A DNA stretch of 64,000 bases, from NCBI GenBank assembly GCA_002730035.1, contig PBYU01000081.1, forward strand, positions 1-64,000, written 5' to 3'. The notes beneath the pieces were generated by a model. It saw only the letters and a list, made by a program, of their open reading frames with translations. It had not been told where the DNA came from and did no database searches. Of this stretch, positions 3,030-46,367 are shown piece by piece. How positions within the stretch are numbered: position 1 is the first letter of the stretch; every line of letters starts with the position of its first letter. Origin of the DNA: Gammaproteobacteria bacterium (GTDB lineage: Bacteria; Pseudomonadota; Gammaproteobacteria; Pseudomonadales; Pseudohongiellaceae). The translations under genes were made by a program, and so were the position numbers.

Positions 3030-4745
3030 CTATTCGCTAGTAGATTCTATTGAATCCCCATCAGCTCCAGCACTGTCCTCTCGGCGGAGTCTTGAAATAG
3101 TGGACCATCCTTCAAGGATGATAAACAACGCCGAAGCCATAACTGCGACCTGAATTAGGACAAGGATCCATTGACCTTTGCTAATGTAATCCATCACGTA
3201 CCAAACGCCAGCCCACATAGCCATAACTAAAATAAATATCATCGGAGCTAGCAAATACCGCGCAGGTCTTCCAAGCTTGATCAGATAAACCGAAATAATA
3301 ATAAGGGTCATGCCCGCGAGTATCTGGTTAGTAGCACCGAATACCGGCCAAATAAGAGTTCCACCATCACCGGGATAATTCCCGTTCGAAACCCCAAATG
3401 CCAATAACAAGCAAGCGCCCACAGCAACGAAAGTTGAAATATAATTACTCTTTAAAGGGGTTATCTGATAGATACTGCCCCATTCCTGGATAATATATCG
3501 GGTCAACCTCAACCCGGCATCCATCGTCGTTCCAGCGAATAGAACAACCATAACTGCCAACATAGTTTGAGCAAAAGCCAGAGGAATCCCCCAGCCATTG
3601 GAAATCAGCAGCGCACCCCCTGCGATGAACCCGCTTGCTGACGGACCGCCAGTAATGGTTGGATAAAGTTCGTGCCAGCCTCCTGCTGCTGTCGCGGCAT
3701 ACAAGGAACCAGTAACAGCAACGATAGTTATCAGTGCCAGCGAACCCTCGCCCAGCGCACCAAGATAACCAACAAAACGAGCATCCTTTTCGTTGTTTAA
3801 CTGCTTCGCACTAGTACCAGAAGATACGATCCCGTGAAATCCAGACAAGGCTCCGCACGCGATTGTCACAAATAATATTGGCCACAGCGGTGGCGTATCG
3901 GCAGCGACGTCATTAAACATCGGGGCAGCAACATCAGGCATGGTTAACAAGACAGCTGTATAGAGAACGAACAGCCCAACAACTAATTGGGCGCCGTTAA
4001 TATAATCCCTGGGTTGAAGTAGCAACCACACCGGCAACATTGATGCGATGCCTGCATAAACATAAAGCAGAATAATCCAGTTACCGCGCTCGCCAAGTGC
4101 AAAAATATCTCCAGGGAGCGCCAAAGGCATGATGCTTCCGATATAAATAGTGAAATAGAGAATAGATACGCCCACTATCGAGATCACCAATAGATTGAAC
4201 TTTCGACGAATGAGAACACCTACGGCAATTGCCACTGGAATAGCGGCCCATGCAGGGAAAACGGCTTCAGGATAGATAACTAATTCATCTGCGATAATGG
4301 TTGCAAACATTGCGTTGACTAGAACCAGAAGCAGAAAGATTATTATCATCATAACCGAACGAGCGCGGGTCCCAATAATAGTCTCTGAAAGAGCCCCAAT
4401 TGACTTGGCATCGTGTCGATTGCTTGCCCACAATGCTCCAAAGTCGTGAACTCCCGCGAAAAAGATAGAGCCGAAAGTTACCCATAACAGCGCCGGAGCC
4501 CATCCCCAATAAACGGCAATAGCCGGTCCTACAATAGGAGCGGCACCGGCCACGGCGGTAAAATGGGAACCCCAAAGCACAAATTTATTGGTAGGGACGT
4601 AGTCAATGCCGTCCTCAAAGCGATGCGCCGGAGTCTCAAAATTCGGGTCTAGCCGATAAATTTTTTCAGCAATAAATTTGGAATAGACAAACCATCCAAA
4701 TGCAAAGCCTACCAGGCCGAATAAGACGATGAAGATCGAAGACAT
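3030..4745 (-). CDS. cstA: Carbon starvation protein CstA family (pyruvate/peptide transporter-like)
   Basis: Multi-TM protein starting MSSIFIVLFGLVGFAFGWFVYSKF; VGPAIAVYWGWAPALLWVTFGSIFFAGVHDFGALWASNRHDAKSIG and SSGTSAKQL motifs. ORF track start 4853 is probably too long. Confidence 0.92.
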   Translation of the reverse strand: MSSIFIVLFGLVGFAFGWFVYSKFIAEKIYRLDPNFETPAHRFEDGIDYVPTNKFVLWGSHFTAVAGAAPIVGPAIAVYWGWAPALLWVTFGSIFFAGVHDFGALWASNRHDAKSIGALSETIIGTRARSVMMIIIFLLLVLVNAMFATIIADELVIYPEAVFPAWAAIPVAIAVGVLIRRKFNLLVISIVGVSILYFTIYIGSIMPLALPGDIFALGERGNWIILLYVYAGIASMLPVWLLLQPRDYINGAQLVVGLFVLYTAVLLTMPDVAAPMFNDVAADTPPLWPILFVTIACGALSGFHGIVSSGTSAKQLNNEKDARFVGYLGALGEGSLALITIVAVTGSLYAATAAGGWHELYPTITGGPSASGFIAGGALLISNGWGIPLAFAQTMLAVMVVLFAGTTMDAGLRLTRYIIQEWGSIYQITPLKSNYISTFVAVGACLLLAFGVSNGNYPGDGGTLIWPVFGATNQILAGMTLIIISVYLIKLGRPARYLLAPMIFILVMAMWAGVWYVMDYISKGQWILVLIQVAVMASALFIILEGWSTISRLRREDSAGADGDSIESTSE

Positions 4746-4872
4746 AAAGGGCTCTCCCGAATTATTATTATGAAATCTAAGCGACGCATCATAGCAAGTT
4801 AGGGGCTTGCGAGACAATGTGATCGTAACCCTCAGTCTGCCAATTTGCCGCACTTGCTGGCAGTCTCAGGCC

Positions 4873-4929: not shown

Positions 4930-6633
4930 CTAGTTTGTAGGCTTGGCCGCATGGTAGGTCCAGTAACCGATGAACATCTCATCCCAGCTCTGCAGGCCGA
5001 AGCTCAGTTCCTTACTCGGATCAGGATTGGCCGGATTATATTCGGAATTATCGAAAGTTCCGGTTACGTGCACCTTAGTGCCGGCAGGCAATTCCATTGG
5101 ATCATCCAGTGCATAGGTTGGCTGCCAGGCGTAGCTGTAGTTGGGAACGCTCAGCAAATCCTGCATCGAGCCGTCAGGCAGCTCGGCGCTGAATTTCATG
5201 TCCTTGCCTCGAAAATGCATATGGGCACGTAATCCTGTAACCACCACGTCCTCATCGAACACATACTGAGCCGATGTCGGGTGATCCTGGGCGAAAGCAG
5301 GAATACGAAACATACCGGAGACGGACTGAGTAAAATTCTCGTAAGCCGGTGGCTCATCGTACATATATAGACCCAGGAGAGTTTCATCGACAGTAGCCTT
5401 GCCATTGGTGGTGTAGTGAAACTGCATGGAAAGCTTGTGCCCTTGCGGGATATAGACACCGGTGTTTTCCGGGAAGGTCATGGCATCGACCTTCCCTGGG
5501 GCATAGCCTTCCAGGAATCGGGTCGCCACATTTCCAGTCGCGGCTTCTCCCTGCACGGCTTCGCTTGGAGCCGTTACATAACTCAGCAGGTGATGTAATA
5601 CCGACTCGTCGCCGGCTATGTATTGAACCGCCTTTACCCACTTGTCTTCTTCGAATGGCAATGGCACTTCGATATTGATGTAGTCGAGCACACCGGTTGC
5701 CGGGATCTCATGGGCTGGAGCCTTGACAATATAATCCGGCTCGCCCAACTGCCATTCACGGCGATCAGCAAACTGAACCTCTGTGAGCGGATCGATGACG
5801 GCAGTTCCCCGAGGCGCACCTGCATCGATCCAGTGAATCAGAGTTTGCATCTGTGCTTCCGAGATATAACGGGCATTACTAAAATGGCCAATGTTCGGGT
5901 CAACCTGGGTTGGTGGCATGCGCTTGGTAAGCAGCACTTCGCGAATCATCGGTGACCAGCCCTGCATCATCAGATGACTGTCCATGGCGAAGGGGCCGAT
6001 GCCTCCTTCCCGGTGGCAAGATGCACATTGCTCGACAATGATGGGCGCTACCTCAGTCCCATAATCGGGGGTGCTGGCCACATGGGCTGCACGGGTGGGA
6101 AAGCTCAGCTCACAGCCCGTCGCTTCTACCACCACCGTGCTGTCTGCAGTACCGGCAAGTTCGCTGGCAAGAACCTGTGCCGCGGAGTCTTGTGCCGGCC
6201 CCGTGTAGAGCAGCGTTAGCCGCTCGGGATCGAGAATGGCGATCTCGCCTGCCTTGGAAAGGCTTAGCGTCTCAGAGACCAATTGGCCATTATCAACCAG
6301 CAGTGGCAAATCGAATCCGTGCCCGGCCTTGGCAGCACGAATTGCCTCGATATTGACTTCACCGGATGAGTCAATCAGGGCGAACTCAACACCCTGCTCT
6401 GACCAGTTTGACTGCAGTGATTTTAAGCCCCTGATAGAGGCGTCGATGGAAGCACAGACAGTGTCGAATGACATTAGCACCAGTGCTTGCTTGTTTCGGT
6501 AACGACTCAGCTGGTGGAATTCACCATCGCTGTCCAATAATGCAAAATCGCCAATCCGGTCAGGCAATGCCATTGCGGATGCAGATACCGCAACAGCCAC
6601 GGTCGCGGTAGCCAGCTTGTTAAGCTTTCTCAT
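4930..6633 (-). CDS. Secreted redoxin-like / CxxCH heme-like / PHM-type copper type II monooxygenase fusion (PHM-like 1)
   Basis: Signal peptide; redoxin-like GDFALLDSDGEFHQLS; CASCHREGGIGPF...KRMPP; copper-ligand motifs VLHHLLSYV, MQFHYTTNG, LRAHMHFRGKDMKF, SWDEMFIGY. Confidence 0.85.
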   Translation of the reverse strand: MRKLNKLATATVAVAVSASAMALPDRIGDFALLDSDGEFHQLSRYRNKQALVLMSFDTVCASIDASIRGLKSLQSNWSEQGVEFALIDSSGEVNIEAIRAAKAGHGFDLPLLVDNGQLVSETLSLSKAGEIAILDPERLTLLYTGPAQDSAAQVLASELAGTADSTVVVEATGCELSFPTRAAHVASTPDYGTEVAPIIVEQCASCHREGGIGPFAMDSHLMMQGWSPMIREVLLTKRMPPTQVDPNIGHFSNARYISEAQMQTLIHWIDAGAPRGTAVIDPLTEVQFADRREWQLGEPDYIVKAPAHEIPATGVLDYINIEVPLPFEEDKWVKAVQYIAGDESVLHHLLSYVTAPSEAVQGEAATGNVATRFLEGYAPGKVDAMTFPENTGVYIPQGHKLSMQFHYTTNGKATVDETLLGLYMYDEPPAYENFTQSVSGMFRIPAFAQDHPTSAQYVFDEDVVVTGLRAHMHFRGKDMKFSAELPDGSMQDLLSVPNYSYAWQPTYALDDPMELPAGTKVHVTGTFDNSEYNPANPDPSKELSFGLQSWDEMFIGYWTYHAAKPTN

Positions 6634-6753
6634 GATGTTCTTCTCCAGGGGGTGCAGGGACTTTGGGAATTCTAAACCAAAATGCATTGAATAGGGGCCG
6701 CAAACTAGTCCATACGATGATGCGAGCCCAACGGCCAGGTTTGCTCGTGCGGC

Positions 6754-8538
6754 TTAGTGCTTATTGGTCTTGTGGAAAGAGAAGTACCCGATAAACATCT
6801 CATCCCAACTCTGTGCCCCGCCGCGCACGGCGGCGTCCGGGTCCGGATTACCCAGGTTGTACTGGGAGTTATCGAAGGCACCCTCGATCATGACCCGTGA
6901 ACCGGCTGGAAGCAGCATGGGTTCAGCAAGACGATAGGTAGGTTGCCAGGCAAAATTGTAGTCAGGCACATTAATGATGTCGTCGCGAGTGCCATTGGGA
7001 TAGATCATACTGAAGCGCATGTGCTTGCCGCGATAGTGCATATGGGGTCGTAGCCCGTGCAGCATGACTTCGTCTTCGAAGACATAGGAAGCACTCATGT
7101 GATGTTCGGACACGCCGGGAGGTATCACCAGGTTTCGACCGCCATGACTGAGGGAGTAAGTGGAATACTGGAACTGCGGTTCGTCCTCTGTGAAATAGAG
7201 ACCAAGCAGCGTATTGTCCACCGTCTCCTTTCCGAATGTCGTGTAGTGTAGCGACATCTGCACAGCCGAGCCTTGCGGTACAAAAACTCCGGCATTATCC
7301 GGGTAGGTCGCCGCCTCATCCTTGCCAGGAGCGTAGCCCTCTAGGAATTCGCGATAACTGTCATTCTCGCCTTCGACGATCTTCTCATCATAATCTGCGG
7401 GAACGATGAAACTTAAGAGATGATGCAGTACCCGACGATCCCCAGGCAGGTGCTGCACTGACTTGACCCAGACATCTTCTTCAAAGGGTAGATTAATGGT
7501 TACATTCTCGTAGTCGAGCACTCCAGTTGCCGGCACCGTAAAGGCTGGCACCTCCACAATGTAATCAGGCTCACCCAGTTGCCATAAAGATTCAGGTGGT
7601 TCGATCTGGGTAAGCGGATCGACCTCACTCACTCCACGAGGTGCGCCAGCATCGATCCAGTGAATCAAAGTCTGCAGCTCGCTGGGATCCATGTAACGCG
7701 CGTTAGTAAAGTGATTAATGTTGGGGTCAACTTGAGCCGGAGGCATGCGCTTGGTCATGATGACTTCTTTCATCATGGGGGACCAGCCCTGAACCATCAT
7801 GTAAGAATCCATGGCGAAGGGAGCGATACCACCGGAGATGTGACAACTGACACACTTTGCTTCGAGAATAGGAGCCACCTCGGTGGCGTAGTCGGGAGCC
7901 GCCGACTCGTGCAGGTCTCGAACGGGAAAGTGGAGATCGCAGCCCGTAGCCTCGGTACTTACAGTCTCATCGAAGCCGTCGAAATCACCCGCGATAGTGG
8001 CAGATAATGTGTCAGCCAGCGTTGTGGTACCAGCGCTTGCAGCTATGCCGAGATTCGGGCGAGCCCGCACCGGGTCAATATCGAGTCCACCACGATACAG
8101 CACCTGGAAGCGATTGGGTTCCAGGACAATTACCTCACCTGCCTTACTGATACCGAGGTTTTCAGCCACCAACTGACTCTTATCAAGCAAAATTGGTATA
8201 TCGAAGTTGTGCAATGCGTCCATCAAACGCACGTCGTCCTGCTCATCTTCGACCGAGGAGTTAAGTCCCAGAAATGTAATGCCCTGCTGCTCCCAGGTGG
8301 TTCTTAGAAGGCGGTACTTGGGAAGTTTGTCGATATTTTCGACACAGGCGGAGGCGATGGAAATTATGACGACAGCCTTGCTATCGCCGTATTTGCGAAG
8401 TTGGTGATAGCTTCCTTCGTGATCGAGCAGAGCAAAATTGCCCACTCTCTCAGACGCAAAACTAGCCTGAACTGTCAGCAGCGCTACGACGCTCAGCAAT
8501 GACATCCAGCTTATTCGATTCATACCGGTTTCCCTCAA
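6754..8538 (-). CDS. Secreted redoxin-like / CxxCH / PHM-type copper monooxygenase fusion (PHM-like 2)
   Basis: GNFALLDHEGSYHQLRKYG; CVSCHISGGIAPF...KRMPP; VLHHLLSFI, MSLHYTTFGK, LRPHMHYRGKHMRF, SWDEMFIGYF. Likely start at 8523 (MNRISWMSLL). Confidence 0.85.
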   Translation of the reverse strand: MRETGMNRISWMSLLSVVALLTVQASFASERVGNFALLDHEGSYHQLRKYGDSKAVVIISIASACVENIDKLPKYRLLRTTWEQQGITFLGLNSSVEDEQDDVRLMDALHNFDIPILLDKSQLVAENLGISKAGEVIVLEPNRFQVLYRGGLDIDPVRARPNLGIAASAGTTTLADTLSATIAGDFDGFDETVSTEATGCDLHFPVRDLHESAAPDYATEVAPILEAKCVSCHISGGIAPFAMDSYMMVQGWSPMMKEVIMTKRMPPAQVDPNINHFTNARYMDPSELQTLIHWIDAGAPRGVSEVDPLTQIEPPESLWQLGEPDYIVEVPAFTVPATGVLDYENVTINLPFEEDVWVKSVQHLPGDRRVLHHLLSFIVPADYDEKIVEGENDSYREFLEGYAPGKDEAATYPDNAGVFVPQGSAVQMSLHYTTFGKETVDNTLLGLYFTEDEPQFQYSTYSLSHGGRNLVIPPGVSEHHMSASYVFEDEVMLHGLRPHMHYRGKHMRFSMIYPNGTRDDIINVPDYNFAWQPTYRLAEPMLLPAGSRVMIEGAFDNSQYNLGNPDPDAAVRGGAQSWDEMFIGYFSFHKTNKH

Positions 8539-9037
8539 GCAGTTTCACCATCCTTCGGCACACTTGCTGTGATCTTATAATCCCTGAGTTCTCAAGCTTC
8601 CTGAATGGGTAGAACACGCCGTTTCAGGCACGGGTTTTAAGGGGAAGAAGCTTATCGCAATTCCTGATTCCAAACTTGCCACTAGCTGTGAGGTTTTGTT
8701 ACAAATTGAAACTGTCAGGTGGAGAATCAGCTGATAATTGCCTGGGTATTCAATAGCTTGAATTGCAAGCCGGTAGATTATTAAGTCTCGACCAGGCACA
8801 GGATTGGGAAATAAAACCGCACGCTATTGCAAACGATAGTGTCATTGATGCCCCGTCCCGATGTTTCAGGAAATAGCGAGCGTTCTGAGGAGTTAGCGAG
8901 ACAAGCGGGGCGTTCAATTAGCTACTGACAACTCAGTGTAAAATCGGCAACACTGCATGACTCAACATAACGTGCCACCTTGCACATTTAACCATTTTCC
9001 CAGTGGCTAGCTGTGCTGCGCAGTTCGGCACCGCTAA

Positions 9038-10420
9038 TTACCTGTTTTTGAGTTTTTGCGCGACCCCGTATTCGGAAAAGCTTTGTATTAGCGCGTAGCG
9101 TCTGAATAATTCATACATTCCCCAAAGCGCGCCAATGATAACGATGAGCATCATTCCCCAACGCATAAGAGCCGCAAAGAACAATGCATCAAATACCGGT
9201 AGCTGGAATTGAAACTGGCTCAATTGATCCCCTCGCTCAAACAGCCAGTGCCAGGCACTATGGGCCACGAGAGCCGATAAAAGGATCGTGCCGATGCGTT
9301 CCCTGACGAAATACTTGAACAGCATGTTCAACAGTGGAATCACCAGGATGAGGATTGCCAGCTGTCCGATTTCGACACCCACATTAAAGGCCAGCAGGGA
9401 AGAGAATAGATGCCCTCCAGCGAACTGCAGCGTGTCACTGAACAGAAATGAAAAACCAAATCCATGTACCAGGCCAAATCCAAACGTCACCATCCAGCGG
9501 TGTTCCAACTTCGCTCCAATGATATTTTCGAACGCCATGTAGACTATCGAGATAGCGATTAGCGTTTCAATCAGAGGCGGAAACCACAGCGCATTCGGGG
9601 CAACACCGAAGGCAGATCCGATGAGCGTAATCGAGTGGGCGATGGTAAAGGAAGTAACCACGGGAATCAGTCGGCGCATACTGCGCAGCGGTATTACCAG
9701 ACAGAACAAGAACAGCAGATGGTCGATGCCTTCCAGAATATGCATGAATCCCATGCTGATGAAACGCAGGGCTGCCTGATGCCAGCGCGGATCCAGTTCC
9801 ACCAAGCCGGGATTACCAAGATAGTTGAAGACTCGTTCAGCGCCACCGGGGACCAGAAAGCGCAGCACGGTGGTCGTTTGATCCGAGAGTGTGCCCAATT
9901 GAGGGTCGATTGAAAAATCCGACTGGTCGGACTGAATAGGAAAGGTGACTAACACATCCAGCACGCCCTGGCGCCAGAACAGGTTGGTGGTGTCATCCAG
10001 TGGCGGGCTCTGGATGTTCGCCATGGCTACTTCATAACTGGTAAATGAACGATTTGACGGCAGCGACACACGCGTCAATTGCAATTCTTTCTCAGTTAAC
10101 TCGACATCATTCTCATAGAAATGCATCGACTCGGTGATGTACACCCGTGCCGCATCATTTAGGGCGAACTCCGCTTCCGAAAATCGAATATAGCCTGGCC
10201 CACGCAACGGAAAACTGATTTCCCCAAACGCCTCCATGGGTACACGCAGGAGCGCCGTCAGCTGGGTTCCTTCGGGTTTGACGAATGCATATACAGTGAC
10301 ACGCGATGGAATGTCGTGGGCGATTGACAACGATGGAATATAAAGTAGCAGGACAAGCAAGCAGAACCGGACTGAAATGCTTCGTAAAACTGTGCTGAGC
10401 AGGGCTGCAAAATATCTCAT
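9038..10420 (-). CDS. HupE/UreJ-type membrane protein with large N-terminal periplasmic domain
   Basis: Signal peptide, then GFMHILEGIDHLLFLFCLVIPLRSMRRLIPVVTSFTIAHSITL and FGFGLVHGFGFSFLF, typical of HupE/UreJ-like His-rich TM repeats. Confidence 0.8.
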   Translation of the reverse strand: MRYFAALLSTVLRSISVRFCLLVLLLYIPSLSIAHDIPSRVTVYAFVKPEGTQLTALLRVPMEAFGEISFPLRGPGYIRFSEAEFALNDAARVYITESMHFYENDVELTEKELQLTRVSLPSNRSFTSYEVAMANIQSPPLDDTTNLFWRQGVLDVLVTFPIQSDQSDFSIDPQLGTLSDQTTTVLRFLVPGGAERVFNYLGNPGLVELDPRWHQAALRFISMGFMHILEGIDHLLFLFCLVIPLRSMRRLIPVVTSFTIAHSITLIGSAFGVAPNALWFPPLIETLIAISIVYMAFENIIGAKLEHRWMVTFGFGLVHGFGFSFLFSDTLQFAGGHLFSSLLAFNVGVEIGQLAILILVIPLLNMLFKYFVRERIGTILLSALVAHSAWHWLFERGDQLSQFQFQLPVFDALFFAALMRWGMMLIVIIGALWGMYELFRRYALIQSFSEYGVAQKLKNR

Positions 10421-10800
10421 ATTTATCTTTTATTATTTAATATATTCAGTAGGTTAAGAGGACTCTAAGTGGACAAGACTGGACCTCGATCGACGCTTGA
10501 ATCGCTGCCTGAAACTAGCTGTCACAAATGCTTACAAGTGGTCCTCTGAATAAATGGCATGTGAGTATACTGCCTACAAATAAGACAGTATACTCGGGCC
10601 TTGCGCTGAGAACATGTTGACCGCTGGGTTTGTCGGTTGCCCCGGGGCTTTAAGAGGAGAATACAAATGACGAAGATTAAAGTATTGATAGGAGCTACTC
10701 TGGTAGTTGCATTGGTTGCACTCGGTGTAGCGCAGTCCAACTTACAAGAGCCTGCCGTTGCTGCTAACAATGACGTTATGGCCCCCCACTTCCTGGTCGA
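10398..10800 (+). repeat. Long direct repeat copy 1 (HupE start, promoter region, PAL-like 1 signal peptide)
   Basis: Near-identical to 12192..12595 at an offset of about 1795 bp. Confidence 0.85.
10563..10595 (+). promoter_or_regulatory. Hairpin upstream of PAL-like 1
   Basis: GAGTATACTG-CCTACAAATAAGA-CAGTATACTC perfect 10-bp arms; recurs upstream of PAL-like 2. Confidence 0.6.
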
Positions 10801-11860
10801 TCCATTGTGGCCGAAGCCACTGCCGAATCACTGGGTAATGGGAAGGACAATAGGGGTTGATATAGACGAAAGAGACCATGTTTTCGTTGTTCATCGCGAT
10901 CAGGCAGAAATGTTCAGTATGAATACCGAAATAGGTTTGTTCGCTGGAGTTGCCGAATGTTGCACTCCCGCCCCTCCAATACTTGAATTTGATATCGACG
11001 GAAATCTTGTAAACGCCTGGGGTGGAGCGCAAGAAGATGCAGAGTATGTATGGCCAGCTTCCAACCACGGTATAGACGTAGCTCCGAACGGTGATGTCTG
11101 GATTGGAGGAAATGGTGGCGGCGATTCACATATGCTGGTTTTCTCTCGTGATGGGGATTATATCCGGACAGTTGGCGTTCCTGGCAATGGCCGAGATAGC
11201 AACAGTACTGAACATTTCTCCATGGTTGCAGAAGTTGCTATCGATGGACCGAACAATGAAGTTTATGTAGCGGATGGCTACAGAAATAGAAGAGTTGCTG
11301 TTGTTGATCTGGCAACTGGTGCATTCAAACGGTATTGGGGTGCCTATGGAAACACTCCGGATGACACTGCGGACGTAACATATACACCAGGCGAGCCCGG
11401 TCCTCAACAATTTCGCGGACCGGTACACTGCGCAGAACCGTCTAATGATGGGCTAGTTTATGTGTGTGACCGTGGAGCAGACCGTATTCAAGTGTTCCGG
11501 ACTGATGGAACCTTTGTAGAAGAAGTAATCCTATCACCTGCAACTTTGTCTCAGGGATCCACGTGGGATATTGATTTTTCTCCGGATGATGCTCAGGAAT
11601 TTATGTATGTGGCTGACGGGCAAAACTTCAAGATTTATGTAATGAATCGGGCTTCTTTGGAAGTGCTTTATACATTTGGAGATGGGGGTAGACAACCGGG
11701 TTTATTTTATGCGCCTCACTCCATTGCAACAGACTCTGAGGGTAACATCTATACAACTGAGACTTATGAAGGCAAACGTGTGCAGAAATTTCTTAATCAA
11801 GGTATGCGTCCAGTAGACGTAAGAGATCGAGCACCTACGTGGCCCGCTGACGAGTTGTAA
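10667..11860 (+). CDS. Secreted NHL six-bladed beta-propeller, peptidyl-alpha-hydroxyglycine alpha-amidating lyase-like (PAL-like 1)
   Basis: Signal peptide MTKIKVLIGATLVVALVALGVAQ; motifs VVHRD, SNHGIDVAPNGDVWIGG, VYVADGYRNRRVAVV, GPVHCAEPSNDGLVYVCDRGADRIQVF, APHSIATDSEGNIYTTETYEGKRVQKF match PAL blade/His pattern. Shine-Dalgarno-like aagaggag upstream. Confidence 0.82.
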   Translation: MTKIKVLIGATLVVALVALGVAQSNLQEPAVAANNDVMAPHFLVDPLWPKPLPNHWVMGRTIGVDIDERDHVFVVHRDQAEMFSMNTEIGLFAGVAECCTPAPPILEFDIDGNLVNAWGGAQEDAEYVWPASNHGIDVAPNGDVWIGGNGGGDSHMLVFSRDGDYIRTVGVPGNGRDSNSTEHFSMVAEVAIDGPNNEVYVADGYRNRRVAVVDLATGAFKRYWGAYGNTPDDTADVTYTPGEPGPQQFRGPVHCAEPSNDGLVYVCDRGADRIQVFRTDGTFVEEVILSPATLSQGSTWDIDFSPDDAQEFMYVADGQNFKIYVMNRASLEVLYTFGDGGRQPGLFYAPHSIATDSEGNIYTTETYEGKRVQKFLNQGMRPVDVRDRAPTWPADEL

Positions 11861-11877
11861 TACCTGTCTCAACCAAG

Positions 11878-11910
11878 AAAACGGCCTCCATTTGGAGGTC
11901 GTTTTTTTTT
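11878..11910 (+). terminator. Rho-independent terminator after PAL-like 1
   Basis: aaaacggcctcc-attt-ggaggtcgtttttttt. Confidence 0.85.
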
Positions 11911-12191
11911 GACTAAATCGCAGGAGTTCGTCCTTAAAATTTCATTTCAGAGTATACGTAGAATAAAAAAAATATCTCCATCTAAGTCTATACCCTCCTT
12001 TGCCTGATAATATTATTTTGCTTGCTCCAAAACCCTCGGGAATCTCCCTACCCAGCCAGTTTCGCCACACGGTCAGAAGCTGTTGGCAAATCTCACTTGG
12101 AAGGGGTGGTTTGCAAGGTAAACACCTTGCATCCTCGCTGCGGGCCCGTGACTATCCGGTAGGGTGAGGAACGATGGCCGCAGGCCAATCC

Positions 12192-12595
12192 GAGCAGGGC
12201 TTCAAAATATCTCATGTTTACAATTTATTATTTAATATATTCAGTAGGTTAAGAGGACTCTAAGTGGGCAAGAATGGGCCTCGATCGACGCTTGATTCGC
12301 TGCCTGAAACTAGCTGTCACAAATCCTTACAAGTGGCCCTCTGAAAAAATTGCTTGTGAGTGTACTGCCTACAAATAAGGCAGTATACTCGGGCCTCGCT
12401 CTGAGAGCATGTTGACCCTTGGGTCTGTCAGTAGCTCCGGGGCTTTAAGAGGAGAACAAAAATGACAAAGATTAAAGTATTGATAGGTGCAACTCTGGTA
12501 GTTGCATTGCTTGCACTCGGTGTAGCGCAGTCCAACATACAAGAGCCGGTCGTTGCTGCTAACAATGACGTTATGGCCCCCCACTTCCTGGTGGA
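12192..12595 (+). repeat. Long direct repeat copy 2 (residual HupE start, promoter region, PAL-like 2 signal peptide)
   Basis: Near-identical to 10398..10800, including cagggct.caaaatatctcat and taatatattcagtaggttaagaggactctaagtgg. Confidence 0.85.
12358..12390 (+). promoter_or_regulatory. Hairpin upstream of PAL-like 2
   Basis: GAGTGTACTGCC-TACAAATAA-GGCAGTATACTC; 12-bp stem with one G.U wobble relative to copy 1. Confidence 0.6.
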
Positions 12596-13655
12596 TCCAT
12601 TATGGCCGAAACCCCTACCCAACCACTGGGTTCAAGGCAACACCATCGGTGTTGACGTTGATGAGCGAGACCATATCTTCGCGGTTCACAGAAACACCGT
12701 ATCGCAATTCATGAGAATTCAGGAAATCGGCCTTTTCTCCGGTGTTGCCGAATGTTGCACACCGGCGCCGCCAATTCTTGAGTTTGACCTGGAAGGTAAC
12801 CTGATCAACGCCTGGGGCGGACCTGTAGAGGGCGCAGCTTATACATGGCCGGAATCCAACCACGGTATTGATGTCGCACCAAATGGTGACGTCTGGATCG
12901 GTGGTAACGGCGGACCTGACTCCCACGTACTCGTTTTCACCCGTGATGGTGAATACATACGCACAGTCGGTGTACCCGGACAGGATATAGACAGTAACAG
13001 CGAGACTCACTACGGTCGTGTCGCTGAAATCGCCATCGATGCGTCGGCTAACGAAGTGTATTTCGCGGATGGCTATGCCAATAAGCGTGTTGCCGTTGTC
13101 GATCTTGCCACTGGTGCCTTCAAGCGTCACTGGGGTGCTTACGGTAACCGTCCAGATGACGATACCGACACAACTTACACCCCGGGTGAGCCAGGTCCTC
13201 AGCAATTCCGCGGACCGGTACACTGTGCCGAGCCCTCTAACGACGGTCTGATTTACGTGTGTGACCGTGGTGCTGACCGCGTGCAGATTTTCCGCCCGGA
13301 CGGAACCTACGTGAGCGAGCATATCTACAATCCTGCCACTCTGGCACAAGGATCTACCTGGGATATCGCTTTCTCTCAAGATGACGACCAGGAATTCATT
13401 TACCTGGCAGACGGTCAGAACTTCAAGATCTCCATTATCGATCGAGAGTCTATGGAAGTTCTGTACACCTTCGGTGATGGCGGCAGACAGCCTGGTCTGT
13501 TCTTCGCCCCTCACAGTATCGCTACTGACTCTCAAGGTAATATCTATACCACTGAGACCTACGAAGGTAAGCGTATCCAGAAGTTCCTGTTCCAGGGTTT
13601 GCAAGCTGTTACTGTTCGTGACCGTGCACCAACCTGGCCAGCAAACGAACTGTAA
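12462..13655 (+). CDS. Secreted NHL beta-propeller, PAL-like 2
   Basis: Same motifs as PAL-like 1: FAVHRN, SNHGIDVAPNGDVW, VYFADGYANKR, GPVHCAEPSNDG, DRGADR, APHSIATDSQG. Confidence 0.82.
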   Translation: MTKIKVLIGATLVVALLALGVAQSNIQEPVVAANNDVMAPHFLVDPLWPKPLPNHWVQGNTIGVDVDERDHIFAVHRNTVSQFMRIQEIGLFSGVAECCTPAPPILEFDLEGNLINAWGGPVEGAAYTWPESNHGIDVAPNGDVWIGGNGGPDSHVLVFTRDGEYIRTVGVPGQDIDSNSETHYGRVAEIAIDASANEVYFADGYANKRVAVVDLATGAFKRHWGAYGNRPDDDTDTTYTPGEPGPQQFRGPVHCAEPSNDGLIYVCDRGADRVQIFRPDGTYVSEHIYNPATLAQGSTWDIAFSQDDDQEFIYLADGQNFKISIIDRESMEVLYTFGDGGRQPGLFFAPHSIATDSQGNIYTTETYEGKRIQKFLFQGLQAVTVRDRAPTWPANEL

Positions 13656-13675
13656 AGAGATCTTTGTCTAAATAG

Positions 13676-13713
13676 AAAGCCCGGCTTCTTGCCAAGGAAG
13701 CCGGGTTTTTTAT
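13676..13713 (+). terminator. Rho-independent terminator after PAL-like 2
   Basis: aaagcccggcttc-ttgccaag-gaagccgggttttttat. Confidence 0.85.
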
Positions 13714-13735
13714 CGCCTGGCGATTCAGCTCCGGA

Positions 13736-15091
13736 GTGGCTCCACCTGGCGTTCACAGCCACCAGCAGGCCGCTGAGGGTGAGGCCATTCAGTATCCGCT
13801 ACGGATTTCGCGGTCAATTCCATTGCCGATGTTCCTCTCGGACTTTAATGGTGTTAACTTCAATTCTCCGGTAGTAGTTTCATTCACTCAACAGGAAACC
13901 GCTATGTCTAAAACAAGAAAAACACTCCTTTTCAGCTTTCTCGCCATCACCTTATTCAGTGCACTCAATCTTGCCCAGGATCGGCTGGAACAGTCGGCCC
14001 AGGCGGTAAACAATGACCGCATGGCTCCCCAGTTCGTGGTCGATCCCTTCTGGCCCCAGCCAATGCCCAACAAGTGGTTGCTGGGGCGCACCATCGGTAT
14101 CGCAATCGACGAGCGCGACCACCTGTACGTCGTGCATCGCGACCAGGACAGCATGTTCATGAGCCAGGAACTGGGTCTGGACCTGGGTAGGGCCGAATGT
14201 TGCACGGCGGCACCACCGATTCTGGAATTCGACAGTGACGGTAACCTGATCAATGCCTGGGGTGGTCCCGGAGACGGCTATACCTGGCCAGAATCCAACC
14301 ACGGCATCGAGGTGGCACCGGACGGAAATGTCTGGATAGGCGGCAATGGCAGTGGCGATTCCCACGTGCTGGTCTTCACTCGCGATGGCACCTTCGTGCG
14401 CGAGATTGGCATTCCTGGAGAACCTATAAACAGCCTCAGCACTACATCATTCGGCCGGGTTGCGGAAATCGCTATCGATGCGTCTGCCGGTGAAGCCTAT
14501 TTTGCCGATGGCTACGGCAACAAGCGGGTGGCCGTGGTGGATGTTGCCACCGGTGCCTTTAAGCGGTTCTGGGGCGCCTATGGCAATACGCCGGTTGACG
14601 AACGCGTGGTCTATGACCCCAACGAACCCCTCCCACAACAGTTTGTTGGTCCCGTACATTGTGCCGAACCCTCTAATGACGGCCTGGTCTACGTCTGCGA
14701 CCGCGGCGCCGACCGCATCCAGGTATTCAGACCCGATGGCACCTTCGTAAAGGAAGGCCAGGTTGCGCCGCTTACTCTGGCCGGTTCCACCTGGGATATC
14801 GCCTTCTCCCCGGATGAGGATCAGGAGTTTATTTACGTCGCCGACGGCGCAAATTTCAAGGTCCATATTCTCGATCGTGAATCCCTGGAAGTTCTCGCCG
14901 AATTCGGCGATGGCGGACGCCAACCCGGATTGTTCTTTGGAACCCACAGCATTGTTAGCGATTCACAGGGCAATGTGTACACGACCGAGACCTATGAAGG
15001 AAAACGCGTACAGAAATTCATCAACCAGGGCATGAAGCCTCTCAGCGAGCATTTCACTGGAGCACCCTGGCCGGTTGAAGAACTCCATTGA
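13736..15091 (+). CDS. Secreted NHL beta-propeller, PAL-like 3
   Basis: Likely true start at ATG near 13904 (MSKTRKTLLFSFLAITLFSALNLAQ); YVVHRD, SNHGIEVAPDGNVW, YFADGYGNKR, GPVHCAEPSNDG, DRGADR, GTHSIVSDSQG. Confidence 0.8.
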   Translation: MAPPGVHSHQQAAEGEAIQYPLRISRSIPLPMFLSDFNGVNFNSPVVVSFTQQETAMSKTRKTLLFSFLAITLFSALNLAQDRLEQSAQAVNNDRMAPQFVVDPFWPQPMPNKWLLGRTIGIAIDERDHLYVVHRDQDSMFMSQELGLDLGRAECCTAAPPILEFDSDGNLINAWGGPGDGYTWPESNHGIEVAPDGNVWIGGNGSGDSHVLVFTRDGTFVREIGIPGEPINSLSTTSFGRVAEIAIDASAGEAYFADGYGNKRVAVVDVATGAFKRFWGAYGNTPVDERVVYDPNEPLPQQFVGPVHCAEPSNDGLVYVCDRGADRIQVFRPDGTFVKEGQVAPLTLAGSTWDIAFSPDEDQEFIYVADGANFKVHILDRESLEVLAEFGDGGRQPGLFFGTHSIVSDSQGNVYTTETYEGKRVQKFINQGMKPLSEHFTGAPWPVEELH

Positions 15092-15106
15092 GAGTCTTTT
15101 TATATT

Positions 15107-15136
15107 CAGTCAATGTCCATCCCTGGACATTGACTG
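15107..15136 (+). repeat. Perfect hairpin downstream of PAL-like 3
   Basis: cagtcaatgtcca-tccc-tggacattgactg. Confidence 0.7.
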
Positions 15137-15355
15137 AGTCGTCGGGAATTGCTGGCGCAAAAGCGCGGTTTTGCTGACAATTCCTCTCCTCGCATTTGCT
15201 GCGCAAATGGCAGCACTTCCCTGTGCTGCTCAGAGTTCTTTTTGCCGTTAAGGCGTCTGGTACTTTTTTTGTGTCTAATTATTGCGCCGCCTTGAACCGA
15301 TGCTGATAGTCAATTATTCTCGTCTATCACTTACTTCATAGAGATCCACAGCGTC

Positions 15356-15898
15356 ATGAAATTCCGATTCGCCAGTTGCCTGTGCATAGCCCTAATTTGT
15401 AACTCTCTTTTCGCTGCCGAAGATGTCACGGTTGCCTATCAATATGCGGGAAACCACAATACAGATTTTGGCAGTATCCGGTTTTCTCTCGGTGTCGGTG
15501 AGTTCAGCGATGGTCGGGGTGTCGAAAACGCCAAGCAAATTACCGACGATTACCAGGCCGAGTCTCCCTTGGCTGAGCTCGTTCGAGATGCACTGCTGCA
15601 GGGATTCATACATGGCGGCGCCGAGCTTGTCGATGATGGGGCAGACATGCAAATAATCGGAAGAATAAACAGTTCCGAAGTGCAAATCGTCGACCGCGGC
15701 GGCGTGGAGTCCCTACAATTAACCATTCGCACCGCTGTGCAATTGCAGGGTCGCGGCAGAACCATCTGGGAAACCACATTATTCGGCCGAGGAGTCGTCC
15801 CGGTAAACGAAGGCATTGTTGCTGCCGTTCATGGAGCGATGGATCGAATGATTCAGGAATTGGTAAGCGACGACTACTTTCTGATCGAACTGCAATAA
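15356..15898 (+). CDS. Secreted hypothetical protein (outer-membrane/lipoprotein-like beta fold)
   Basis: Signal peptide MKFRFASCLCIALICNSLFA; no family recognised with confidence. Confidence 0.6.
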   Translation: MKFRFASCLCIALICNSLFAAEDVTVAYQYAGNHNTDFGSIRFSLGVGEFSDGRGVENAKQITDDYQAESPLAELVRDALLQGFIHGGAELVDDGADMQIIGRINSSEVQIVDRGGVESLQLTIRTAVQLQGRGRTIWETTLFGRGVVPVNEGIVAAVHGAMDRMIQELVSDDYFLIELQ

Positions 15899-15909
15899 CA
15901 CTGCTCAAT

Positions 15910-16716
15910 CTATCCTGAAGACTCTACACACCCCAGCCCCGCGTATGCCGGTCCGGCAATCGGCCGCGATTGATCAGGAAATAAGCGTAGCCCGGTGGCT
16001 CTCTCCACCTCATCGACGGTGGCACGCATTTCACAGTGATGCACGTGTACAGGCGAGTCCTGGTCGAATATAAATGCTGCACCAAGACCTGTTGCAGTTA
16101 TCACAATTTTAAAAAATGCATCTGGCACCCTGTGAGGTGTATCTGTTAACAACGATTCGGCCTCCGGCTGCGGTTTGTATATGGGCCCCGTCAACACGTA
16201 AACCTCACCTTCCCGATTTACCAGGTTTCTGATTGCCCAGTCCAGCCCGTACCAGGCGCCCTGGTTCAGACCGGAAGAACGGGCAACACTGTTGCTTAGG
16301 TAATTAACATCCTCCCAGTAGGGCGTAGCTGCAAAATCCACCAAGGGCACATAGCGGGTTCTCACGAGACCCAGCGATTCCGAATCGGCAAAATCTTTCG
16401 CCTCCAGAGTATCGCTCACGAAATTATCTGCAATTACTTGCCGGGACAGACTCGATGCAATGCCAATCGAGCCTGTCGACACCGTGTAAGCAACCCAATC
16501 CGCGGATTTGCGCTCCGTGTTATAAGATAGGGCGTATATCGGGCGAATGATAAGGTGATTGTCGGCATTCGCTCCGAGTGGACAACCCTGGTAGCAATGT
16601 GCTATCCGGTAGTTTTGCGCCCCGCTGGAGGTCGAAAACAGAATCCCGCCAAGCAGCAGAAGGCCGCAACAGGCGCGGTTAATCGATGGAAATTTGTTGA
16701 CTAATAGAGTCCGCAT
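15910..16716 (-). CDS. DNA/RNA non-specific endonuclease (Serratia nuclease-type) homolog with atypical active-site motif
   Basis: DVNYLSNSVARSSGLNQGAWYGLDWAIRNLV...VYVLTGPIYKP...VPDAFFKIVI...MRATVDEVERATGLRLFP matches Serratia-type nuclease layout; ORF track start 17019 is probably too long (signal peptide begins at 16716). Confidence 0.75.
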   Translation of the reverse strand: MRTLLVNKFPSINRACCGLLLLGGILFSTSSGAQNYRIAHCYQGCPLGANADNHLIIRPIYALSYNTERKSADWVAYTVSTGSIGIASSLSRQVIADNFVSDTLEAKDFADSESLGLVRTRYVPLVDFAATPYWEDVNYLSNSVARSSGLNQGAWYGLDWAIRNLVNREGEVYVLTGPIYKPQPEAESLLTDTPHRVPDAFFKIVITATGLGAAFIFDQDSPVHVHHCEMRATVDEVERATGLRLFPDQSRPIAGPAYAGLGCVESSG

Positions 16717-17130
16717 TTCAGAGTGGATTCTGGTAGCTGCCTTTTCCTGTGGGATTGACGGTGTTTCAGCCTTCTGGCTGCGACTATCATACCCACTCGC
16801 TAGACCTGAGTATGTAATAAAGTTTGGCAAACTGGCGTGCCTGTGGGCGGTAATTTTTTGACCAGCTCCGGACGTCATCCCGCATACCCAGGCGAGGATT
16901 GCGACAGCGTCGGCAACCAGCGCATCCCATTTGTTAACCAATCCCCCAATGCCGGTGTCTAATGAAGTGCTGGCATAATTCCGTAGAACAGCGTCCCACT
17001 GGATGGGCGATGATTTCAAAAACAGCTAACCGATTATTGAAATTTGTCTTTCATTTCACTTTTTAGGAAGCTTTATTGAACCTGCCTCTCTACTATGTGC
17101 CACTGACAGACTTGCTTTAGGTAAGAACTC

Positions 17131-18888
17131 ATGAAATTACAGGAGATCGAAATGCTTAGATTAAAGATTTTCGCCAAGCTTGCGGCAGCAACCTCCCTGA
17201 CTGCACTGGTTTGCATGTCGGCCAATGCCCAGGATCGCATCAGCGATTTCTCCCTGGTCGACGCCGACGGCCGCTTTTTCCAGCTTAGCCGCAATGCCCA
17301 TAAGAATGCGATTGTGCTGCTGGCCTACGATATGGAAAGCCGGGACGCACGACGTGCAGCGGGCGACCTGGAAGATCTGGCTGAGCAGTTCGCTGACCAG
17401 CAAGTTGATTTTTTAGTGATCAACTCCACCGGTCTCGCAGACAAGACTGTCATGCGTGAAGAGGCCGAAGACGAAGACATCAGCCTGCGCATCCTGATGG
17501 ACGATACGCAACTGGTTGCCGAAGAGTTGGGTCTTACCCGTGCTGCCGAAGTTGCCATCATCGATCCCCAGGCGAGTGCCGTGGTCTATCGCGGCGCGCT
17601 GAGCAGCAGGCATGCCGATGGCAGCCGCTCCGAGCGCAATGCAGGCTCTTATGCAGAAGAAGCACTTACTGCAATACTCGCAGGTGGTGAAATTTCCAGC
17701 GAAACTCTGGCCAGTACAGGCGATGCTCTCGACTTTACTGCCAAGACAGCCTTCCTGGAATCAGTCACCTACGCGGACGACGTTGCTCCAATCCTCGAAC
17801 AGCGCTGCTCTGCTTGCCACCAGGAAGGTGGTGTTGCGCCTTTCGCCATGGAGAGCCATCAGATGATCCAGGGTTGGTCACCGATGATTCGTGAAAGCCT
17901 GATGACCAAGCGAATGCCTCCCGGGCAGATTGACAACGAGTATGTTCAAGCCTTCCACGATATAAATCACATCACGGTGGAAGAAACTCAGAAGCTGGTT
18001 CACTGGATCGATACTGGCGCCAGAAACGAAGGTAGCACCGACCCACTGGCCGCGCTGGATATCTCTCCTGCGAAATGGCTGAATGGCGAACCGGACATGA
18101 TCATCGACATTCCACCACAGCAGATCCCAGCCACGGGTGTGCTGGAATACCGCAACCTGGTGGTGCCTCTGGATATCGATGAGGACGTCTGGGTTAAGGC
18201 AGTGGAATTCGAAGCAGGCGATCCTGCTGTACTGCACCATATTATCGCCTTCTCTTATGGCCCTGACGGAATCAACCAGTTCGAAATCCTGAACCAGGGA
18301 ATCGGGCTCGGTGCATACGCCCCTGGTAACGAGTTGAACCTTTATCCAGAAAATGCCGGATTTCCTTTGGAGGCTGGTGGCGGTCTGCTACTGCAAATGC
18401 ACTACACGGTTTCCGGCAAGGAAACTGTCGATGCCTCGCAGATCGGTCTGTATCTTTGGGAAGAAGAGCCTGAAAAAGTAGTCCTCGGTGGTTCTGCTGC
18501 CGACATGGATATCGATGTTCCGCCATTCTCAACGAAAGAGATGGTTGCCACCAAGACGTTCCGAGAGGACGTCTACCTGAGCATGCTTGGACCACATATG
18601 CACTTCCGTGGTTACGACGCTAACTTCAAGCTGCGATATCCAGATGGTCGTGTGGAAGAAGTGCTGAATATTCCTAACTACCAGTTCAACTGGCAGAAGG
18701 TTTACGATTTCAAAGAACCAATGTTCCTGCCAGCCGGTACTGAGCTGGTGTTCCGCGGCACTTTCGATAACACGGAATACAATCCGAATAATCCAGATCC
18801 ATCCGTAACACTGAACTGGGGGGAACAAACCTGGCAAGAAATGTTCTTCGGTTTCTTCCGCTATACAGAAGCTGACAGCGGAGAATAA
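17131..18888 (+). CDS. Secreted redoxin-like / CxxCH / PHM-type copper monooxygenase fusion (PHM-like 3)
   Basis: SDFSLVDADGRFFQLSRNA; CSACHQEGGVAPF...KRMPP; VLHHIIAFS, LQMHYTVSGKE, LGPHMHFRGYDANF, TWQEMFFGFF. Confidence 0.85.
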   Translation: MKLQEIEMLRLKIFAKLAAATSLTALVCMSANAQDRISDFSLVDADGRFFQLSRNAHKNAIVLLAYDMESRDARRAAGDLEDLAEQFADQQVDFLVINSTGLADKTVMREEAEDEDISLRILMDDTQLVAEELGLTRAAEVAIIDPQASAVVYRGALSSRHADGSRSERNAGSYAEEALTAILAGGEISSETLASTGDALDFTAKTAFLESVTYADDVAPILEQRCSACHQEGGVAPFAMESHQMIQGWSPMIRESLMTKRMPPGQIDNEYVQAFHDINHITVEETQKLVHWIDTGARNEGSTDPLAALDISPAKWLNGEPDMIIDIPPQQIPATGVLEYRNLVVPLDIDEDVWVKAVEFEAGDPAVLHHIIAFSYGPDGINQFEILNQGIGLGAYAPGNELNLYPENAGFPLEAGGGLLLQMHYTVSGKETVDASQIGLYLWEEEPEKVVLGGSAADMDIDVPPFSTKEMVATKTFREDVYLSMLGPHMHFRGYDANFKLRYPDGRVEEVLNIPNYQFNWQKVYDFKEPMFLPAGTELVFRGTFDNTEYNPNNPDPSVTLNWGEQTWQEMFFGFFRYTEADSGE

Positions 18889-18946: not shown

Positions 18947-19102
18947 TGCCCAGTCTTCCTGAAAATGCCTCCCCTGCCAGGGCAATAACGCTGACCGCCA
19001 AGCACCCCAAACCCTCGTAATCAGTAGCCCATTGACGGTCAGTACCAGATTCTGTGCTAGACTCTTGCTAGTCTGCTTCTCTCAAATTTAAGTTTGTGCG
19101 CT

Positions 19103-20746
19103 ATGAAATACGCCTTCCTTTTACTCAGTTTTTTGACGCTCGCTTCTGTCGCAACCGCTGACACAACGCTGATCAGCAACATCAATGGTTATACCCTGAA
19201 CAGCGATCGACAACTGCTTCGGTTCTCGGCGCTGCAATTTACCGACGACAGCATCGACCGCACGTTTACAGCAACAGACACCCTGCCGGATGGCGCGGAC
19301 CAAACCATTGACGGCGCAGGGCAGACGTTGATAACCGGCCTCATCGATGCCCATGGTCACATACTCAATTACGGAAGATTCTTGTTGCAGGTGGACCTGG
19401 TGGGAAGCACGACTGAGCAGGAAGCCGCGCAGCGTGTCGCGGCTTTCGAAGCGGCTAACGGCGAGCTGGAATGGGTGCAGGGCCGGGGATGGAACCAGGT
19501 CTTGTGGGACAGCAACAGTTTCCCCACCGCCGCAATATTGGACGCCGTAGTCAGTCACAAACCAGTCTGGTTACGCCGCATCGACGGTCATGCCGGCTGG
19601 GCAAATACCGCCGCCATGGAGCTGGCCGGCGTTACGCGTGACTCGCAAGATCCAACCGGTGGCCAGATCATGCGTGATGCGAATGGAGATGCTACCGGGG
19701 TATTTATCGATACTGCCATGGGTTACATCAGCTCACAGCTACCCTCTGCCACTATCGAAGAGCAGAAAATTGCCCTGCACACATCGATGAGCAGGCTGGC
19801 GGAATTCGGGCTGACCAGCGTACATGATGCCGGTGCCAGCAGTCAAACTATCGCGGCTTACAAGCAGCTTGCGCAGGACGGACCATTGCCGATTCGCGCC
19901 AATGTCATGATCGCCGCATCTGATCCGCTTTATCAGGACCGGCTCGATGAGGGACATTTTCGCAGCGAAGATGACACTCTCAATATCAACAGCGTAAAAG
20001 TAGTCGGGGATGGCGCGCTGGGGAGCCGTGGTGCGGCGTTAATCGAGGAATACTCCGACGAGCCGGGCAACCATGGACTGCTGCGCTATGACGATGAACG
20101 CATGGAATTCCTGATGCGTGTAGCCATGAATTCCGGTTTCCAGGTTAACACCCATGCCATCGGTGACGATGCCAACATGAAAGTACTGGATAACTATGAA
20201 CGCCTGATTCTGGAGACCGATTCAGGTGCGATGCGTCATCGTGTGGAGCATGCTCAGATTTTGCGCTACGAAGACATCTTGCGGTTTGCCGAGCTGGGTG
20301 TTATTCCATCCATGCAGGCAACCCACGCCACCAGCGACAAGAACATGGCTCAGGACAGACTGGGAGAAACTCGCATTCAGGGGGCATATGCCTGGCGTAA
20401 GCTCATGGAATCCGGCGCACGCATCGCCAACGGTTCCGACTTCCCGGTGGAGTCACCCAATCCGTTCTGGGGCTTGCACGCCTCGGTAACCCGCCAGGAT
20501 CAGAACAACGATCCCCCCGGTGGTTGGTTTCCCGAAGAGAGTATGACTCTGGAAGAAGCCTTCGCCAGCTTTACCATCGATGCTGCCTACGCGGGGCACC
20601 AGGAAAATCTATTGGGCACTCTGGAGCCCGGCAAGAAGGCTGACTTCATCATCATCGATCGTGATATTTTTGAATCGCCAGCCAGCGAACTCTGGCAGAC
20701 TCAGGTACAGGAAACCTGGGTAAATGGAAGGAAGATTACTGACTGA
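19103..20746 (+). CDS. Secreted amidohydrolase family protein (YtcJ-like)
   Basis: Signal peptide; GLIDAHGHILNYG, HAIGDDANMKVLDNYE, RVEHAQIL, NGSDFPVESPNPFWGLHASVTR, LEPGKKADFIIIDRD. Confidence 0.88.
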   Translation: MKYAFLLLSFLTLASVATADTTLISNINGYTLNSDRQLLRFSALQFTDDSIDRTFTATDTLPDGADQTIDGAGQTLITGLIDAHGHILNYGRFLLQVDLVGSTTEQEAAQRVAAFEAANGELEWVQGRGWNQVLWDSNSFPTAAILDAVVSHKPVWLRRIDGHAGWANTAAMELAGVTRDSQDPTGGQIMRDANGDATGVFIDTAMGYISSQLPSATIEEQKIALHTSMSRLAEFGLTSVHDAGASSQTIAAYKQLAQDGPLPIRANVMIAASDPLYQDRLDEGHFRSEDDTLNINSVKVVGDGALGSRGAALIEEYSDEPGNHGLLRYDDERMEFLMRVAMNSGFQVNTHAIGDDANMKVLDNYERLILETDSGAMRHRVEHAQILRYEDILRFAELGVIPSMQATHATSDKNMAQDRLGETRIQGAYAWRKLMESGARIANGSDFPVESPNPFWGLHASVTRQDQNNDPPGGWFPEESMTLEEAFASFTIDAAYAGHQENLLGTLEPGKKADFIIIDRDIFESPASELWQTQVQETWVNGRKITD

Positions 20747-20771
20747 CACACTGTGTCCTATAGAGTTTATT

Positions 20772-23079: not shown

Positions 23080-24252
23080 ATGACAGATAACTACATGCCC
23101 GGCAGGCATTTCCTGCAAATTCCCGGACCCTCCAATGTTCCCGACAGCGTGTTGCGTGCCATGGCGCAACCGGTTATTGACCATCGTGGCCCGGAATTTC
23201 CCGAGCTGACCTTTGGCATTCTGGAAAAACTCAGACCCATTTTCAATACCACCGGATCCATCTTCATCTATCCAAGCTCTGGCACTGGTGGCTGGGAATG
23301 CGCGCTGCTCAATGCTCTCTCCCCCGGCGACAAGGTGCTGGCATTCGAAACCGGTCACTTTGCCACGCTGTGGAAAAACGTCGCCGAAAACCTGGGGCTG
23401 CATATCGTTTGGATACCCGGAGACTGGCGCCACGGCATCAACCCTTCCCTGGTGGAAGAAAAGCTGAGTGAGGACAGCAAGCATGAGATCAAAGCCGTGC
23501 TCGCCGTGCAGACAGAAACCTCTACCGGAGTCACCAGCCAGATTCCCCGTATCAGGGCTGCCATCGATGCCGCAAAACATCCGGCGCTGTTTTTGGTAGA
23601 CACAGTCTCCTCCCTGGCCTGCACTGAATTCAGGCACGACGACTGGGGAGTGGACGTCACCGTCAGTGGCTCACAGAAGGGGCTGATGCTACCGCCGGGC
23701 CTGAGTTTTAATGCAGTTAGCGAGCAGGCTCTGGCACGTGCCAAGAGTTCCACCGCCCAGCATTCCTATTGGCGATGGGACACCATTCTGGAAAACAACC
23801 AGCTTGGATACTTCCCCTATACACCGAACACCAACCTCTTATATGGCCTGGATGAAGCGCTGACTCTGCTGCACAGGGAAGGCATGGACAATGTTCTGGC
23901 CCGACATGCCCGACTGGCAGAGGCAACGCGCCGCGCCGTTACAGCCTGGGGTTTGGAAAATTTATGTATGAACCCTGAAGAATATTGTAACTCCCTCACC
24001 GCGGTATTGGTGCCGGAAGGCTATGATGCTGACGTGCTGCGTAAGATCATTCTGGAACGCTTCAACATGTCGCTGGGCACCGGCCTGGGTCGATTAAAGG
24101 GTCCTATCTTCCGAATTGGCCACCTGGGCGATTTCAATGACTTGATGCTGGCAGGCACGCTTAGTGGCATCGAGATGGGATTGGCGCTGGCTGACATTCC
24201 CCATAGCAGCGGCGGGGTTGATGCAGCACTTGAATTTCTAGCCACCAATTAA
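23080..24252 (+). CDS. Pyridoxal-phosphate aminotransferase, serine/alanine--glyoxylate aminotransferase family
   Basis: HFLQIPGPSNVPDSVLRAMAQPVIDHRGPEFPELT; DTVSSLACTEFRHDDWGVDVTVSGSQKGLMLPPGLSF (PLP lysine context). Confidence 0.9.
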   Translation: MTDNYMPGRHFLQIPGPSNVPDSVLRAMAQPVIDHRGPEFPELTFGILEKLRPIFNTTGSIFIYPSSGTGGWECALLNALSPGDKVLAFETGHFATLWKNVAENLGLHIVWIPGDWRHGINPSLVEEKLSEDSKHEIKAVLAVQTETSTGVTSQIPRIRAAIDAAKHPALFLVDTVSSLACTEFRHDDWGVDVTVSGSQKGLMLPPGLSFNAVSEQALARAKSSTAQHSYWRWDTILENNQLGYFPYTPNTNLLYGLDEALTLLHREGMDNVLARHARLAEATRRAVTAWGLENLCMNPEEYCNSLTAVLVPEGYDADVLRKIILERFNMSLGTGLGRLKGPIFRIGHLGDFNDLMLAGTLSGIEMGLALADIPHSSGGVDAALEFLATN

Positions 24253-26784: not shown

Positions 26785-26864
26785 AGTTCTTTCCCGTAGA
26801 TTGACTAGACCTGGAGCTAAGGTAGTATTTTTGACAAAAGTAATCAATACAAACTCGTTGATGT

Positions 26865-26905
26865 GGGGGTAGTTCATTTGCTTATTGAGCAAATGAACTA
26901 CCCCC
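26865..26905. repeat. Perfect inverted repeat, 18-bp arms
   Basis: gggggtagttcatttgct-tattg-agcaaatgaactaccccc. Confidence 0.9.
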
Positions 26906-46173: not shown

Positions 46174-46367
46174 CTCTTCTTGAGTGATTTGCAGAATTTC
46201 CCAAAAATGGAACAGACTTCCATTTGGGTGATTTACCAGTCCTTTAGTAGACACTCCTAGACTAGCGGTTTTTTCAAATTCACTCTATACCTTCAGGTGA
46301 AAGATAAGTGTTGTACGCGAACGGGACACTGAGTATAAAAGGCAAATAGCGAACAAGGTAACAGTAG

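Follow-up and report, generated by a model that had tools for sequence, protein, structure and literature searches.

A conserved gammaproteobacterial locus of PHM-like and PAL-like genes suggests a bacterial route for extracellular removal of glycine-type ends

A locus in an OM182/Pseudohongiella-type gammaproteobacterium suggests an unstudied bacterial route in which glycine-type ends are clipped off molecules outside the cell. The OM182/Pseudohongiella group consists of common marine bacteria. In the window, by which we mean the whole 64,000-nucleotide stretch of DNA that was analysed, the locus encodes secreted relatives of both halves of PAM, the enzyme that caps peptide hormones in animals: three PHM-like and three PAL-like proteins. 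Two observations are new, namely an arginine-tyrosine clamp confined to the PHM-like proteins PHM1 and PHM2, and a double palindrome in the promoter of the PAL-like and HupE genes. We consider the chances evenly balanced that the locus carries out an extracytoplasmic two-step oxidative N-dealkylation, with a haem-fed PHM and a PAL yielding an amide and glyoxylate; the purpose of such a module would probably be catabolic. No account of a bacterial PHM/PAL system was found in the literature searched, and PAM-type amidation has been described in animals and certain other eukaryotes (PMC6529398).

The first-pass annotation of this DNA had listed three PHM-like and three PAL-like genes, and an ORF check found all six to be real and separate. 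Most of its coordinates stand; the GTG start given for PAL3 at 13736 is too far upstream and is replaced by 13904, and PHM2 is placed at 6754–8523. PHM1 (4930–6633, minus strand) has a signal peptide followed by redoxin-like, CxxCH haem and type II copper monooxygenase domains. PHM2 (minus strand) has the same make-up, and PHM3 (17131–18888, plus strand) combines the redoxin-like, CxxCH and copper monooxygenase parts. With their redoxin-like and haem domains, these proteins are more than plain PHM. Pfam reported redoxin/AhpC domains in all three, Cu2_monoox_C below threshold in two, and haem-binding/cytochrome c below threshold in the third. The structure of PHM1, predicted from an alignment of window and related-locus sequences (pLDDT 87.0), was compared with known folds by Foldseek, as had been suggested: DBH came first (E = 2.4e-13), then PHM (9e-13, with many PHM entries), then thioredoxin-like proteins. 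The copper ligands HH, H, HxH and M are present in all three proteins and align, in a profile alignment, with H107/H108/H172/H242/H244/M314 of rat PHM; the rat sequence used differs from PDB 4e4z at one residue. Across 126 PHM-like sequences, the six ligands were retained wherever the column was aligned, the exceptions being a single X and two rows with gaps; CxxCH with a distal Met was found in all except one gapped row. With six ligands and a two-domain jelly-roll fold, the PHM-like proteins belong to the PHM/DBH type II copper monooxygenases; their CxxCH and distal Met also mark them, as judged from sequence, as c-type cytochromes.

The PHM-like proteins differ from PHM in being only about 17–20% identical to it, in their redoxin-like and c-haem fusions, and in having Ile in place of N316. 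DBH (4zel) matches the fold of PHM1 equally well or better and gives a sequence profile match of E = 7.7e-5, but the DOMON/ascorbate arrangement of DBH was not seen and a haem domain stands instead. PHM1 and PHM2 carry the PHM-type pair R240 and Y318, in register with rat PHM in the profile alignment of the window family, which we take to be the residues that hold the glycine carboxylate in the PHM structure. Among the 21 PHM-like sequences of the genome, only PHM1 and PHM2 carry both residues, and the pair is kept in 36/36 scored orthologues of PHM1 and 28/28 of PHM2 (64/64 in total). Orthologues of PHM3 have Gly and Phe at these positions (43/43), and the Arg is missing from redoxin-PHM proteins encoded in four further gammaproteobacterial genomes. 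Retention of the glycine-carboxylate clamp in PHM1 and PHM2 supports action on N-substituted glycines. Three PHM-like copies do lie at the locus, as first reported, but the count extends beyond it: a fourth, shorter one occurs at 62502–63872, a fifth on the contig just beyond the window (64027–65430), and about 20 in the genome. The fourth and fifth are short cytochrome c-PHM proteins without a redoxin domain, a type with about ten genes in the genome and Gln or Glu at the Arg240 position in most.

PAL1 (10667–11860), PAL2 (12462–13655) and PAL3 (13904–15091), all on the plus strand, encode exported proteins that match NHL repeats in Pfam. The predicted structure of PAL2 (pLDDT 87.5, from an alignment of window and related-locus sequences) found animal PAL 3fvz as its top PDB fold match (Foldseek, E = 4.6e-16), and the propeller and PAL align over the full length. 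With numbering taken from 3fvz, where H585, H690, H786, R533, Y654, R706, M784 and D787 all fell on the expected letters, equivalents of the three zinc histidines were found in all three window propellers. R533, H585, Y654, H690, R706 and H786 are invariant in 116 close homologues, gaps and X aside. The overall fold matches the six-bladed propeller of PAL, the alignment indicates its three-His zinc site, and Arg533, Tyr654 and Arg706 of PAL are in place as well. The earlier statement that all metal motifs are kept therefore holds for the copper ligands and the zinc histidines but fails for the calcium ligand of PAL: D787 is Ser, and M784 is Ala or Gly in the window and Ala, Gly or Ser among close homologues. 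R533, H585, H690 and R706 also occur in nearly all the remaining NHL propellers that the genome encodes, so the site is partly common to the wider NHL family; those propellers mostly have His654 and Glu786, which makes Tyr654 with His786 the mark of the PAL-like clade. In a tree, rat PAL sits on a long branch (support 49), and the tree fixes no position for it relative to the bacterial clade. A divergent NHL propeller (L149, 3152–4342) also retains the full R533/H585/Y654/H690/R706/H786 set. PAL1 and PAL2 resemble a tandem duplication, promoter included; synonymous sites between the PAL copies are saturated, hence no dN/dS ratio was obtained. In bifunctional PAM the two halves form one polypeptide, whereas here they are separate genes; PHM and PAL are likewise separate in insects (PMC6529398).

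The HupE/UreJ_2 permease (9038–10420, minus strand) is transcribed divergently from PAL1 and shares the HupE_UreJ_2 Pfam domain and HX5DH motif of the HupE/UreJ nickel-cobalt permeases. The common promoter of HupE and PAL bears a double palindrome, AGTATACT-N15-AGTATACT, at 10564–10594, and a second copy with one mismatch precedes PAL2 at 12359–12389. Allowing up to two mismatches, these are the sole occurrences genome-wide. In related loci, 47 of 51 HupE-linked PAL genes are preceded by the element, mostly at a distance of 50–63 bp, and it has no other occurrence there. A candidate protein operator is a better reading of the repeat than a riboswitch: Rfam matches in the window at gathering score were tRNAs only, and relaxed-threshold searches around the PAL genes gave none near gathering score. 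Its spacing recalls NikR operators; NikR itself was rejected as the regulator, as the genome has no NikR_C match.

We compared the locus with those of OM182, Pseudohongiella and related gammaproteobacterial assemblies, among them a 6.6-Mb chromosome in a single contig and Pseudohongiella assemblies that bear AG-type names and resemble single-cell genomes. The widely conserved order begins with a CstA-family transporter of the peptide/pyruvate type (3030–4853, minus strand), which adjoins PHM1, and continues through PHM1, PHM2, HupE and the PAL gene or genes. An LptE-like secreted protein (15356–15898, plus strand) and a secreted DNA/RNA non-specific endonuclease (15910–17019, minus strand), the latter conserved within the locus in most related genomes, then precede PHM3. 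Amidohydrolase_3 (19094–20746) and a PvdQ-like lipoprotein of the penicillin-acylase family (20724–23045), both on the plus strand, are conserved downstream. Among 36 HupE-PAL loci with full flanks, at least one PHM-like gene was found in 35, PHM3 in 33, PHM1 in 27, PHM2 in 20, CstA in 30, amidohydrolase in 30 and acylase in 29. Since this synteny extends across most related genomes fetched, the association of PHM with PAL is more than chance. Farther on come a class V aminotransferase (23080–24252, plus strand), closest to serine/aspartate-glyoxylate aminotransferases, and then a GntP-family permease (24297–25670, plus strand). In the 30 loci extending past the acylase or amidohydrolase, the glyoxylate aminotransferase occurs in 12 and GGT in 17, and never both; BhcA was accordingly rejected as an obligate partner, GGT standing in its place at other loci.

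Both protein families were found in 37/37 genomes of the genus, and neither turned up in the 21 further families examined within the order. The clamp-type motif is absent from 10 of the 37 despite PAL or PAL-like matches, five of these genomes being at least 92% complete. Among 369 class-level genomes, close PAL occurred only in the genome studied here and strong PHM1 relatives in five, this one included; among 399 phylum-level genomes, PAL relatives occurred in 15 besides this one. The co-occurrence predicted earlier is thus borne out by synteny but does not seem obligate as in a PAM pathway, given that profile A4 found no PHM-like protein in those 15 genomes, in a search run without a positive control. 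Some Alphaproteobacteria in which no PHM-like protein was found have close PAL relatives that share these residues. PAL-like genes lie on plasmids of Methylobacterium, Skermanella and Indioceanicola, in the last two next to HupE; on these two plasmids, PAL-like is followed directly by HupE inside type II secretion clusters. A plasmid search returned no PHM1 and no close match to PAL, the best among the matches listed being alphaproteobacterial. PAL-like proteins seem to exist without PHM, and coupling, if real, is therefore lineage-specific.

This distribution speaks for regarding the halves as uncoupled. PAL-like proteins and HupE would then form an older metal-regulated unit with its own lyase, hydrolase or metal-handling function, the PHM-like proteins would belong to a large family of haem-linked copper hydroxylases of unrelated dissolved organics, and their adjacency would reflect co-regulated metal or scavenging genes. 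The PHM-less HupE-PAL pairs of Skermanella and Indioceanicola fit this account, as do the 15 PAL-bearing genomes (the same search without a positive control), the PHM-like genes of the genome that mostly lie away from PAL, the palindrome placed between HupE and PAL, and the missing clamp of PHM3. It is at odds with the restriction of the clamp to the very paralogues that sit beside PAL, with synteny to PHM genes in most related genomes, and with retention in close PAL homologues of Tyr654, which most of the genome's other NHL propellers lack; we regard it as possible but rather unlikely. The joining of redoxin-like and haem domains to a copper domain could also point to redox or copper-stress proteins that are not oxygenases, with structural propellers. 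That is improbable, for the six PHM copper ligands are invariant in scored sequences where aligned, and the redoxin domain of PHM3 has lost its cysteine, which argues against a thiol-redox role in that protein. Animal-like biosynthetic amidation that matures a secreted peptide signal or antimicrobial would account for the presence and export of both PAM catalytic halves, yet it is very unlikely, because no precursor-peptide gene was noticed in the locus gaps, short ORFs matching other loci consist mainly of promoter or overlap sequence, and the neighbours are hydrolases, permeases and a glyoxylate aminotransferase, with peptidases downstream.

Under two-step N-dealkylation, Arg and Tyr of PHM1 and PHM2 would grip the carboxylate of an N-substituted glycine, such as an N-acylglycine or a peptide with C-terminal Gly, and the alpha carbon would be hydroxylated at the CuM/CuH pair with electrons from the fused c-type haem rather than from ascorbate. 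The PAL propellers would split the alpha-hydroxyglycine into amide and glyoxylate, with metal supplied by HupE. The hydroxylation and lyase steps are proposed on the strength of active-site residues shared with PHM and PAL. The amide may then be hydrolysed by the amidohydrolase and penicillin-acylase, and glyoxylate recovered through CstA/GntP-type permeases and, where present, the aminotransferase. The first-pass annotation had already proposed oxidative N-dealkylation of N-substituted glycines; fold, active-site residues, conserved adjacency and the PHM1/PHM2 clamp speak for it, but the clamp-less PHM3, PAL in genomes without a clamp-type PHM or any PHM found, and the haem/redoxin fusions make coupling only probable. 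Strict equivalence to PAM is countered by the absence of the clamp from PHM3 and of the calcium ligand and Met784 from PAL, by PAL genomes without the clamp, and by the Alphaproteobacteria in which PHM was not found. Against the mechanism itself also stand PHM3, the commonest PHM at these loci, the Ile in place of N316, the loci that have no PHM1 or PHM2, and the aminotransferase missing from most loci. We therefore put forward only tentatively the full picture of a marine gammaproteobacterial catabolic module in which glycine or carboxymethyl ends are removed by haem-driven PHM and PAL, the amide and glyoxylate are taken up, and a regulator specific to PAL and HupE controls the genes.

If true, a split bacterial PAM with a built-in haem donor would show how amidation chemistry runs without ascorbate, would bear on the origin of animal PAM, and could be a source of soluble amidating enzymes. 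A marine group rich in PHM-like genes would also gain a testable role in the breakdown of N-substituted glycines in dissolved organic matter.

Farther along the window lie two large proteins of the M14 zinc carboxypeptidase family (38664–41468 and 43459–46254, minus strand), with GGT and an M19 dipeptidase close by, surroundings that make this a peptide-scavenging neighbourhood. Four secreted proteins (25744–26892, 26908–27954, 47150–47971 and 48088–49119, minus strand) gave no match to Pfam at E 0.001. An RTEW/RTEY...PDLQG motif lies close to the N-terminus in three of the four, and the protein at 47150–47971 has the related motif PDFSGIW.
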